A DNA stretch of 64,000 nucleotides from Reichenbachiella versicolor (GTDB lineage Bacteria; Bacteroidota; Bacteroidia; Cytophagales; Cyclobacteriaceae): contig NZ_QFZQ01000006.1 of assembly GCF_003171675.1 (NCBI RefSeq), positions 310,001 through 374,000 of the forward strand, in the 5' to 3' direction. This document shows, piece after piece, positions 3,860 to 44,974 of this stretch. The notes beneath the pieces were generated by a model that saw only the letters and a program-made list of their open reading frames with translations, did no database searches and had not been told where the DNA came from. Each line of letters starts with the position of its first letter. Within the stretch, counting starts at the first letter, position 1. The position numbers were made by a program, and so were the translations under genes.

Positions 3860-4411
3860 CTATTCCCACATCATTTTAATCTCAGTATATTCATCTCCTC
3901 CAGCTATAGATTTTGGAAGAGAAACCTTGAGATTATGACATCCACAAATCTCCATGGCTTTTTCCATCCAACCTGCAATACGATATTCTATTATTCTGTC
4001 TTTGATAGGGAGTCGAGTAATGTGAACTGTCATAGTCGTATCCGAACTTTCGATAAGGTGAATTTCTGTATCATCATAAAAAGTTGGAAGCATTCTACCA
4101 GCTCTCTTGATAATAAAACCAGGTTTACTTACTAGGACAAAAACTTTATATACTCCCGTTAAGGCGATTTCAGCACTATACCTCCCAGACTCCCATGAGC
4201 CTTTCTTTTCATTAACGAAGAACATATCGCACATTGACCTTGTAGGCTCTATCACAGCCTCCTCCACTGGATACCACTGAGAAGACGCTACTTTATTGTA
4301 TATATTCTTAGAATCATCCGATAACGTATCGTACCATAGAGCGTACTTTTCGGGAAATTTCTTCTGGACAAAGTCATTTATTCCACTAACTACATTTCCT
4401 CTTACTTTCAT
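3860..4411 (-). CDS. Uncharacterised 183-residue protein, possibly HNOB/V4R-like
   Basis: This is a soluble protein without a signal peptide or membrane segment. I recognise the arrangement (KGSWESGRYSAE, VYKVFVLVSKPGFIIKRA, RIAGWMEKAMEICGC, GGDEYTEIKMMWE) as similar to small Bacteroidota proteins that resemble heme-NO-binding or 4-vinyl-reductase-like ligand-binding folds, where a conserved GWMEKA helix precedes a terminal GD.YTE..WE strand. That family link is from memory and weak. Cysteines occur in MCDM and EICGCHN. The ATG at 4411 gives the only sensible start. The next gene downstream on the same strand is unrelated. No ligand or reaction can be assigned. Confidence 0.72.
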   Translation of the reverse strand: MKVRGNVVSGINDFVQKKFPEKYALWYDTLSDDSKNIYNKVASSQWYPVEEAVIEPTRSMCDMFFVNEKKGSWESGRYSAEIALTGVYKVFVLVSKPGFIIKRAGRMLPTFYDDTEIHLIESSDTTMTVHITRLPIKDRIIEYRIAGWMEKAMEICGCHNLKVSLPKSIAGGDEYTEIKMMWE

Positions 4412-17997: not shown

Positions 17998-18290
17998 TAT
18001 GGTGGGATTTAAGTTATAAGAAAGATTTAAAAGATTATGTAAAGATAAAATTGTCTTTTACTAAGCTCACATCTAATCGACGAAGCCTCACCACCTTTCG
18101 ACCAAAACAAAATACCTCCTACAAAACACTACTGTCCAACACTTTACAACCCAGCAAGAGGAATACTACACAGTTGCCCTACACTTACTGACAGCGAAGA
18201 ATTGTTTCTCACTCAACCTTATGAAAACCCGAAAGAGACTTTTTAAAAAGAGAGTAAATTATCACAAGAAAAGAGTTATCACTATTCTGC
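17998..18290. other. Upstream region of lipoprotein gene
   Basis: AT-rich non-coding DNA. It holds the leader of the minus-strand lipoprotein gene at its left end and degenerate forms of the 21-bp unit (near 18249-18290) at its right end. No gene is supported here. Confidence 0.4.
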
Positions 18291-18437
18291 AAATACTAAA
18301 TACCTATAAACAAATACTTAATACCTATTATAAAGTAGTTAGTACCATCTTAAAAAAACTAATTACCATTTGTTAAGTAGTAAACTCAATAGTATAAATA
18401 GTAATTACCATTACTTAAATACTAAATACAATGAATA
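18291..18437. repeat. Tandem array of seven 21-bp units upstream of XRE gene
   Basis: Seven contiguous 21-bp units begin at 18291, 18312, 18333, 18354, 18375, 18396 and 18417. Approximate consensus is AAATACTAATTACCATTATA plus one base. The core TACC sits at 18301, 18322, 18343, 18364 and 18406, is TACA at 18427, and is degenerate in unit 5. Spacing is exactly 21 bp (two helical turns), so all cores face the same side of the DNA. There are no spacers, so it is not a CRISPR. It resembles an iteron-like or operator array. Confidence 0.8.
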
Positions 18438-18502
18438 AAAGAGAAATTATGATAGAACTAATAGTTATGTGTAATAATCATGTAGTTTTACAACTGAAAT
18501 AA
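18431..18502 (+). CDS. Possible 23-residue leader peptide
   Basis: The frame ATG AAT AAA AGA to TAA encodes MNKREIMIELIVMCNNHVVLQLK. It starts inside the last repeat unit and stops 19 bp before the XRE start codon. No Shine-Dalgarno-like sequence is obvious. It may be chance in AT-rich DNA. Confidence 0.2.
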   Translation: MNKREIMIELIVMCNNHVVLQLK

Positions 18503-25816: not shown

Positions 25817-26545
25817 CGTCATTACGAACGCAGTGAAGTAATCTCTCAAATGAAAGCAGCAACGTACCTGAACAGATCGCCGCGCTATGCTCGCGATGAC
25901 GGGTCGAAAAGCATCATGTCAAAACTAACGTCTTTGTGAGGAGGAACCACATGGCAATCTCTCAAAATGAAGTAGTACCATACTCGTATAGATCGTTCAC
26001 GATGACAGTTATAAATCAAAGAAACAGCGTCATTACGAACGCAGTGAAGTAATCTCTCAAATGAAAGTAGCAACGTACCGGAGCAGATCGCAGCGCTGTG
26101 CTCGCGATGACGGGTCGAAAAGTATCATGTCAAAATTACTACCGTCTTTGCGAGGAGGGACGACGTGGCAATCTCTCAAAATGAAGTAGTAACATACCCG
26201 AATAGATCGCCGCACTGTGTTCACGATGACGGTTATAAATCAAAGAAACAGCGTCATTACGAACGCAGTGAAGTAATCTCTCAAATGAAAGCAACAACGT
26301 ACCGGAGCAGATCGCAGCGCTGTGCTCGCGATGACGGATCGAAAAGTATCATGTTAAAACTACCCGTCTTTGTGAGTAGGAACCACATGGCAATCGCTCA
26401 AAATGAAGTAGTACTATACCCGAATAGATCGTTCACGATGACGGCTATAAATCAAAGAAACAGCGTCATTACGAACGCAGTGAAGTAATCTGTTCGTTGA
26501 ACCACTGTATGACCTAAACAGATCGCTTCATTCCTCGCGATGACG
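25817..26545. repeat. Tandem composite A/B repeat array
   Basis: Unit A starts at 25817, 26028, 26252 and 26464 (CGTCATTACGAACGCAGTG ... GATGACGGGTCG). Unit B starts at 25929, 26143 and 26365 (CGTCTTTGTGAGGAGGAACC ... GATGACGGTTATAAATCAAA). The A-to-A period is 211, 224 and 212 bp. Each unit is a family 2 palindromic element with arms ending GATGACG. No open frame with gene-like features is present. Confidence 0.85.
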
Positions 26546-43193: not shown

Positions 43194-43548
43194 GCATTAC
43201 TGGCAAACAGTACTTCAATCTATCACTGCTAAATCCAATTTGAGCTCATCAAATTCAAATAACAACTTAAGTTATTACAATTCCATACCGTAAAAACACA
43301 AACTCCTATTGTAATATTATAATTACATATAAACATATTGCAATTCAGTATAAACAGATTAATATTCGTTGTTAGAATATCCACATTCTAATCAATGGAA
43401 TTAAGATTGCGGATCGATTGACTCATCGTAGTAACTCAAATAGTGTTCATCGTGCTAGAATCTTCAATCATCATTTACTTCACTAGAAAATTGACAATCA
43501 TACCATTCTAACGACAACTGATCTAGTCCTCTAGCTCAACTTTTCAAT
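43194..43548. other. AT-rich intergenic region upstream of ahcY leader
   Basis: No gene or repeat is visible in this interval. It precedes the putative promoter and structured leader of ahcY. Confidence 0.35.
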
Positions 43549-43672: not shown

Positions 43673-44974
43673 ATGATTGATACTGAATTGAAATACAAAG
43701 TGAAAGACATCAGTTTAGCTGACTGGGGTCGCAAAGAAATTAAACTGGCTGAAGCTGAAATGCCTGGTTTGATGTCATTGAGAGAGGAGTATGGTGCTAG
43801 TAAACCATTGGCTGGTGCTAGAATCGCTGGCTGTCTTCATATGACTATTCAGACTGCCGTACTGATCGAAACATTGGTAGAACTAGGAGCTGAGGTTACT
43901 TGGTCGTCTTGCAACATCTTCTCTACTCAGGATCATGCTGCCGCTGCTATCGCTGCTGCTGGTATCCCTGTTTACGCTTGGAAGGGTTTGACTGAAGAAG
44001 AATTTGACTGGTGTATCGAACAGACTCTTTTTGCATTTGAAGATGGTAAGCCATTGAACATGATCTTGGATGATGGTGGAGACTTGACCAATATGGTTTT
44101 TGATCAATTCCCTGAATTAGTAAAAGACATTAAAGGTCTATCTGAAGAAACTACTACTGGTGTTCACAGACTTCAGGAAAGAGAGGCTAATGGTACTTTA
44201 GTTATGCCTGCTATCAATGTAAATGACTCTGTGACTAAGTCTAAATTCGACAACAAGTATGGATGTAAAGAGTCATTGGTAGATGCTATCAGAAGAGCTA
44301 CTGATGTGATGATGGCTGGTAAAGTAGCTGTTGTGGCTGGATATGGTGACGTAGGAAAAGGTTCTGCTGCTTCATTGAGAGGTGCTGGTGCTAGAGTAAT
44401 CGTAACTGAAATCGACCCTATCTGTGCGCTACAGGCTGCGATGGATGGTTTCGAAGTGAAGAAAATGGATGATGCTGTTGCTGAAGGTGATATCATCGTA
44501 ACTACTACTGGTAACAAGGACATTATAGTTGGTCGTCACTTCGATAAAATGAAGGACAAAACTATTGTTTGTAACATCGGACACTTTGATAATGAGATCG
44601 ATGTGGCATGGTTGAACGAAAATGCTAAGAAAACTGAAATCAAGCCTCAGGTTGATTTATATGACTTGAATGGTACTGAGATCATTCTTTTGGCTGAAGG
44701 TAGATTGGTAAACTTAGGATGTGCGACTGGTCACCCATCTTTCGTAATGTCTAACTCTTTCACTAACCAAACTCTTGCTCAATTAGAGCTTTGGGCTAAT
44801 AGTGACAACTATGAGAATAAAGTCTACATGCTTCCTAAACACCTAGATGAGAAAGTAGCTAAGCTTCATTTAGCGAAAATCGGTGTAGAGTTAGATGTAC
44901 TATCTGAAGAACAGGCTGAGTATATCGGTGTAACTGTAGATGGGCCATTCAAACCTGAGTATTACAGATACTAA
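43673..44974 (+). CDS. ahcY: Adenosylhomocysteinase
   Basis: Hydrolyses S-adenosylhomocysteine to adenosine and homocysteine, removing the product that inhibits methyltransferases. It has 433 residues. The ATG at 43673 is followed by [19 protein letters not shown], and it carries the family signatures ([30 protein letters not shown]) and the NAD-binding [21 protein letters not shown]-terminal PFKPEYYRY is diagnostic. It has its own promoter-like region and a long structured leader. A hairpin terminator follows. Confidence 0.98.

Follow-up and report, generated by a model that had tools for sequence, protein, structure and literature searches.

An array of 21-bp direct repeats lies head to tail upstream of a gene for a small HTH protein in Reichenbachiella versicolor (the window analysed here is a stretch of 64,000 nucleotides), and arrays of the same period recur at this position before the genes of related proteins in many species. 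The explanation which we favour, with a probability of roughly 0.6, is a self-contained module of a regulator and its array, in which the protein would occupy its own array cooperatively, along a single face of the DNA, and thereby control its own promoter. We infer binding, cooperativity and control of the own gene from sequence, and the control could be of either sign, repression or activation. The coordinates of the features are compiled in Table 1.

Table 1. Positions of the features at the window locus and of a second type of 21-bp array in the host genome.
Feature	Position	Strand	Basis
Seven contiguous 21-bp direct repeats, consensus AAATACTAAATACCATTAATA, core about TASTNANTACC	18291..18437	+	
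Whole array, probably about 11 units, with two weaker in-register units per side	18249..18479	+	11/21 matches each
Candidate -7 promoter element TAGTTTTA, 39 bp before the start codon	18483..18490	+	5/6 to the consensus TAnnTTTG
Extra TACC core (18504) within the inverted repeat AATTAC...GTAATT, directly before the start codon	18501..18520	.	sequence
Gene for the 117-aa HTH_26 (Cro/C1-type) protein with conserved C-terminal helices	18522..18875	+	
GGTTGATCACATGTAATGCTT arrays (L242-L249)	C2:192197, C2:380457, C2:439528, C2:819359, C3:38828, C16:56861, C20:166403, C20:352115		

The seven units of the window array follow each other without gaps. TACC cores are located at 18301, 18322, 18343, 18364 and 18406 and a TACA at 18427, and the units 1 to 7 match their common consensus at 17, 17, 13, 16, 11, 17 and 19 of 21 positions, which makes unit 5 the degenerate one. 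The initial annotation had described the contiguous units, these cores and the degenerate fifth unit exactly, whereas its array length of seven units is rather nearer 11. The flanking in-register 21-mers at 18249, 18270, 18438 and 18459 match the consensus at 11 of 21 positions each, a level reached by 2.3% of all 21-mers in the window, so that the array probably tapers off across some 11 units. The best period-21 segment extends from -277 to -53 relative to the start codon. In the 500 bp that precede the gene, the score is 45.5 at period 21 and 46.4 at period 42, in comparison to top scores of 22.5 in 1,000 dinucleotide shuffles (periods 21, 42 and 63) and of 19.6 in 200 such shuffles (periods 10-63). 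Only the right part (18360-18449) is picked up by Tandem Repeats Finder, which scores it 66 at period 21 and 99 at period 42. A CRISPR, already dismissed at first reading, was rejected because the units are contiguous and free of unique spacers.

The open reading frame behind the array encodes a protein of 117 aa, which is assigned to Pfam HTH_26 (PF13443) with E=3e-12 and 47 bits against a curated cut-off of 22, in agreement with the small XRE-type HTH protein that had been proposed. The AlphaFold2 model, computed from a 10-row alignment (mean pLDDT 84.6, pTM 0.64), predicts the HTH and C-terminal helices at residues 78-82, 86-96 and 100-116. H77 and P99 are invariant in the C-terminal stretch of the 10 aligned sequences. 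Matches in the PDB fall on the HTH part, the best being SaPI2 Stl (8q86; profile E 0.0095, Foldseek E 0.015), and no significant match to the C-terminal region was obtained by sequence profile. The fold matches found with Foldseek are weak, none reaching E<=0.001; another small HTH protein, EspR (3qf3), appears at E 0.10 and TMq 0.35. A dN/dS of 0.03-0.14 in 11 of 13 protein pairs, dS being saturated in the other two, points to purifying selection. The host genome contains one such HTH_26 gene as judged by a single-sequence search. A search for defence systems with PADLOC gave one weak match (PDC-M69A, E 0.00038) in one of 10 members.

The relatives of the protein were collected with one peptide pattern, as the best 80 of 137 confirmed loci, a set which favours that motif. 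These loci are related by descent, and representatives with less than 60% identity were chosen greedily. Many of them are metagenome bins, and phylum labels such as those of L056, L049 and L105 (a Sericytochromatia bin) may be wrong. Among the first relatives, L003, L004, L005, L008, L009 and L010 (L003 and L010 belong to one genome) have a 21- or 42-bp periodicity upstream with units that differ, as does L006 once it is read on the correct strand; no periodicity that stands out could be identified upstream of L002, and L007, situated at a contig edge with 108 bp upstream, was never scored together with the other loci. The best period within 500 bp upstream was 21 in 39, 42 in 29 and 63 in 5 of 87 loci. 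In a comparison which omits also L001-L005 and L008-L010, one of these three periods was the best in 64 of 76 upstream windows versus 130 of 1,433 other 500-bp windows of the same loci. Scores of at least 30 were found in 42 of these 76 versus 12 of the 1,433, several of the high-scoring other windows being 7-bp repeats or coding repeats. L085 was left unscored; L057, L086 and L093 duplicate L002, L004 and L008, and L090, which is the same record as L015, is still inside the array count of 69 out of 92.

A lack of conservation in relatives with the same gene had been named as one observation that would speak against an operator array. What was found is the presence of arrays, defined by a single rule (period 21, 42 or 63 within 350 bp upstream, score >=20), in 63 of 89 family members versus 1 of 434 other ORFs (>=150 aa) in the same loci. 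With representatives below 60% identity the rule identifies an array in 46 of 57. Many of the 26 members that fail it fall in one clade, rich in Chitinophagales, where arrays are short or missing. A phylum sample added six further distinct loci, not seven, since L169 is the same record as L110; the top period is 21 in all six and the score at least 20 in five, while the sixth, L168, is weak (15.7) and has its array farther upstream. The arrays are tied to the subfamily with the C-terminal part: none of 19 upstream regions of HTH_26 genes without that part reached a score of 15, and none of 14 HTH-only viral loci has an array (these control regions end 70 and 60 bp, respectively, before the match). 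Tandem clusters with a period that is a multiple of 21 account for 66 of 69 clusters upstream of the family genes versus 7 of 57 elsewhere in the family loci.

In a protein tree of 90 rows the 67 members with an array are found on nearly all deep branches, and the array label changes 14 times, compared to 20.6 times in shuffles. Of the 23 array-less rows, 14 sit in one 22-row clade rich in Chitinophagales; this label includes L085, which could not be judged with 4 bp upstream, and L087 with 196 bp. According to the record names, the array-bearing loci originate from Bacteroidota, Ignavibacteriota and Acidobacteriota, and L105 from the Sericytochromatia bin. The gene is rare, being detected in 7 of 395 sampled genomes of the phylum at E<=1e-15, host included. 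Among the seven further genomes of the genus, four (G002, G003, G004, G006) gave no match, and the gene flanking the window locus upstream is absent from all seven genus genomes searched.

The median of 69 arrays comprises 9.7 units and extends from -261 to -57 relative to the start codon. Period 42 often scores like period 21, since alternate units are alike, and a far higher score than at 21 is seen at 42 in L055, L073 and L112 and at 63 in L074, as expected if arrays grow through block duplication. Two loci, L100 (-385 to -213) and L114 (-333 to -192), show a period of 20 bp instead of 21 bp. The units are mostly asymmetric, that is, head-to-tail repeats rather than palindromic operators. 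Palindromic units as a rule were rejected, because palindromy reaches p<0.05 in only 4 of 53 arrays, L094 being the sole clear case, and the mean self-complementarity of 0.408 equals that of the null (0.404). A half repeat of 10 or 11 bp within the unit was likewise rejected (1 of 53 arrays at p<0.05). The conservation of the columns is uneven beyond chance at p<0.05 in 31 and at p<0.01 in 18 of the 53 arrays.

Between array and gene, several loci contain a match to TAnnTTTG, the -7 promoter consensus of the Bacteroidota. Exact copies start within -40..0 at 10 places in 90 loci versus 1.6 expected; eight of the 10 lie at -37 to -40, and one more copy was found at -41. Enrichment is only moderate and less clear for the relaxed form (5/6), which the window locus has at -39: it occurs within -46..-32 in 37 of 90 loci versus 12, 20, 26 and 27 in four control windows. 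A fixed phase between core and promoter is not significant over the 22 arrays compared (Rayleigh p about 0.16 and 0.49).

The sequence of the unit differs among the members and is common to proteins which are about 60% identical or more. On the coding strand the unit similarity is about 0.28-0.31, near background, for pairs below 50% protein identity and increases to 0.37 (50-60%), 0.54 (60-70%), 0.59 (70-80%) and 0.78 (>80%); the reverse-complement control changes from 0.29 to 0.36 over the same range. Since most pairs are distant, the overall rank correlation between unit and protein similarity is small (0.066, a value reached in 11 of 1,000 permutations). A single core, in a phase to the ATG that agrees within 1 bp, is common to six loci; L041 and L043 are from one assembly, and L042, L045, L046 and L051 from different assemblies. 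Whole units seem to have turned over in several pairs, for which the array identity position by position can be near chance although the consensus stays alike (array identity versus unit similarity: L003/L004, 0.25 versus 0.80; L077/L081, 0.26 versus 0.77; L045/L046, 0.39 versus 0.83). L016/L018 are alike both ways (0.91 and 0.95). The recognition helix is one possible driver of this co-divergence; its segment has a partial rho of 0.31, as compared to 0.42 in helix 2 and 0.15-0.31 in the remaining segments. Common descent explains part of this pattern; selection on the core is suggested by the uneven columns and by the replacement of entire units. The proposal of a cooperative operator array is partly supported, in that relatives carry fitting 21-bp arrays upstream, but what is conserved is the period and the position and not the sequence of the unit.

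It is doubtful that the array is not bound by the adjoining protein at all, being either a 21-bp minisatellite of a type common in this host or a site for another protein, yet the host genome itself offers some reason to consider this. In 1.264 Mb (the window, C2:1-800000 and C13:1-400000), where 90 periods were tested, 14 of 39 non-coding tandem clusters have a period of 21, 42 or 63, while about 1.3 would be expected if periods were evenly spread. Two of the 14 lie within the window, one of them being the array upstream of the HTH_26 gene, and the units of the others differ from its unit. One unit, GGTTGATCACATGTAATGCTT, takes turns with an alternate form at eight places of the host genome (91 matches versus 0 in the control). 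For three of these eight arrays the start lies no more than 24 bp from where a gene ends, and homology among the neighbours is limited to two distant genes, 27% identical, whose products are presumably sulfatase-like, judged by sequence. Further non-coding 21-bp arrays with own units are present at L199:71-307, L221:8700-9024, L206:6368-6636, L203:9243-9453 and L224:9460-9625, beside genes for AraC, O6-methylguanine methyltransferase, SIR2-like and unknown proteins; the array before the AraC gene is absent from its four relatives. Arrays of 21 bp with unrelated units are thus a wider habit of the host genome, which could have contributed to the array studied here, and a bound protein cannot be deduced from the period by itself. 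In the initial annotation the period was taken to place every core on one face of the DNA; it fits a cooperative array with two-turn spacing but is no proof of one. The link of the array to the HTH_26 subfamily nevertheless holds across many species. Against a minisatellite speak this link, which separates family members from other ORFs of the same loci, and the concentration of multiples of 21 in the upstream clusters. Conserved cores with variable spacers and cores common to homologues would also be unexpected for neutral repeats.

Several other repeats were encountered in the course of this survey. Four non-coding arrays of period 41 lie in the same 1.26 Mb (L183:19145-19367, L210:395-606, L228:4179-4392, L224:9201-9317). 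The window contains a 224-bp unit in about three tandem copies (25817-26491) and a weak second 21-bp periodicity (43277-43388, score 26), which is intergenic and precedes an ORF at 43673 that we assume to encode an S-adenosylhomocysteine hydrolase-like protein. In Aquimarina sediminis about 11 units of 21 bp with a core near CAATGTCAGGTTA (L088:3598-3822) are separated by 84 bp from the Crp/Fnr-type gene that follows at 3906; the HTH_26 gene of L088 is without a clear array.

The action of the protein appears to be local. In the host genome (5.25 Mb) paired cores with 0-1 mismatch occur only at the window array (four places), and with up to three mismatches there are 27 matches, six of them in the array, versus 52 in a backward control. 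The 21-nt unit of L119 has seven matches with up to three mismatches in its genome of 4.4 Mb, all in the array, versus 0 in the control. Beyond the arrays, single cores do not rise above background in either genome (46 versus 50 in the control for the host, 17 versus 16 for L119). All three perfect single-core matches away from the arrays fall within ORFs; of the sites with one mismatch, one was inspected and is intergenic. There is thus no excess of dispersed sites in the two genomes, which leaves room for a few functional single sites. No conserved partner gene was found over 74 loci: the widest cluster of neighbours covers eight loci in mixed places, and the strands of the neighbours are evenly split (37/35 and 35/37).

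With no excess sites and no common neighbours, nothing points to a purpose other than local control, and further roles have to be weighed. The protein-coated array could be a centromere-like or tethering site that positions, bridges or marks the locus, with autoregulation being secondary as in StbA and KfrA. The layout resembles that of stbDRs/StbA and of the KfrA operator in that direct repeats lie at the own promoter. We consider such a site unlikely. The plasmid location of StbA/KfrA-type partition systems was not observed here: a tblastn search at 1e-5 gave no match in 72,556 plasmid records, and the members in single- or few-contig genomes are located on contigs of 4.5 and 5.5 Mb. A partner ATPase is also missing, and HTH_26 is the only match given by Pfam, the sole comparison that was made to StbA and KfrA. 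The suggestion of a replication- or segregation-like site in the initial annotation found no accompanying gene of either kind; its statement that phage or plasmid genes are lacking nearby agrees with the neighbouring ORFs, among which none is obvious by eye. In a scan of six proteins against PHROGs no match to the 117-aa protein was obtained, and its AraC-type and 194-aa neighbours match families also present in cells. Four phage records and 14 viral contigs match the protein, mostly or only over the HTH part; with these and without a plasmid match a phage or plasmid origin was rejected.

As unlikely as the centromere-like site, in our view, is a class of autonomous chromosomal elements, in which a dedicated protein would occupy alone about ten head-to-tail 21-bp sites, with the spacing set by protein-protein geometry and the address drifting. 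Pairs within one genome would then be mutually orthogonal, and their role would be structural, as a nucleoprotein anchor or a selfish locus, and not the control of other genes.

That the repeats work as a transcribed leader RNA is very improbable: the array precedes the gene, and its strand is kept between homologues, but several members have a promoter-like element between array and gene, and a two-turn period at any sequence suits DNA better than RNA. An iteron-like replication origin or its remnant, brought to mind by head-to-tail two-turn repeats beside a small DNA-binding protein, is the least probable, as Pfam and PHROGs match no replication initiator family, HTH_26 alone being found, and no plasmid relative or array-bearing phage relative exists among the matches.

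For the module of regulator and array, we consider the following mechanism the most likely. The 117-aa protein probably binds an asymmetric core of about 10-12 bp in each unit. Since 21 bp correspond to two turns of the DNA helix, about ten copies of the protein would align head to tail on one DNA face. Contacts between neighbours would hold the assembly together, and the extra C-terminal helices may take part. In relatives the arrays are located in the promoter region of the own gene (63 of 89 members, ending at a median of -57), and the assembly would therefore most likely act as a steep, cooperative autoregulatory switch. The core sequence would have drifted member by member while the spacing stayed fixed.

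Each of the closest known systems shares a part of this layout. Small HTH regulators of the XRE family are likewise thought to bind upstream of their own genes, and in a survey of that family palindromes were sought by MEME with -pal in 200 bp upstream (PMC12565409). In contrast, the arrays described here consist of about ten direct repeats with a 21-bp period, are mostly non-palindromic and extend upstream as far as about -260 (median) or farther. The plasmid RA3 protein KfrA is an autoregulator with short direct repeats at its own promoter, a single locus in the replicon, the operator consisting of five 9-bp repeats of which two are reversed (PMC7783346). Unlike this plasmid protein, the proteins studied here have HTH_26 as the sole Pfam match, about ten 21-bp units and chromosomal contigs as location. 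StbA of plasmid R388, encoded in a plasmid operon, binds direct repeats around its own promoter, namely two sets of five 9-bp repeats 2 nt apart (stbDRs), whose motif is also present in further promoters; it is needed for stability without a required motor (PMC3098194). Asymmetric, cooperative head-to-tail binding to direct repeats, which resembles the asymmetry of the units here, is described for BldC of Streptomyces, a MerR-like protein with repeats of about 9 bp and many targets (PMC5859096). However, BldC lacks HTH_26, and the 117-aa protein has no match to the MerR-like winged HTH but to HTH_26 only. Membership in the StbA, KfrA or BldC families was not found with Pfam. Our search of the literature, mostly without subscription journals and without preprints, gave no report of this architecture among the matches listed.

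The architecture is real and deeply conserved, and its general kind, an autoregulated DNA-binding protein, is known. Unusual are the direct repeats, the fixed two-turn spacing, the freely changing address and the fact that no further target was detected. Surveys limited to palindromes in 200 bp upstream would tend to overlook such arrays. It is a puzzle that a regulator with its own array as the sole detected target, and without fixed neighbours, is yet maintained by purifying selection across several phyla. Should each protein indeed bind the array before its gene, the family would provide natural regulator-operator pairs by the dozen, with one geometry and many addresses, and these could be used for the study of the co-evolution of HTH-DNA specificity and of the behaviour of cooperative arrays, and as orthogonal parts.
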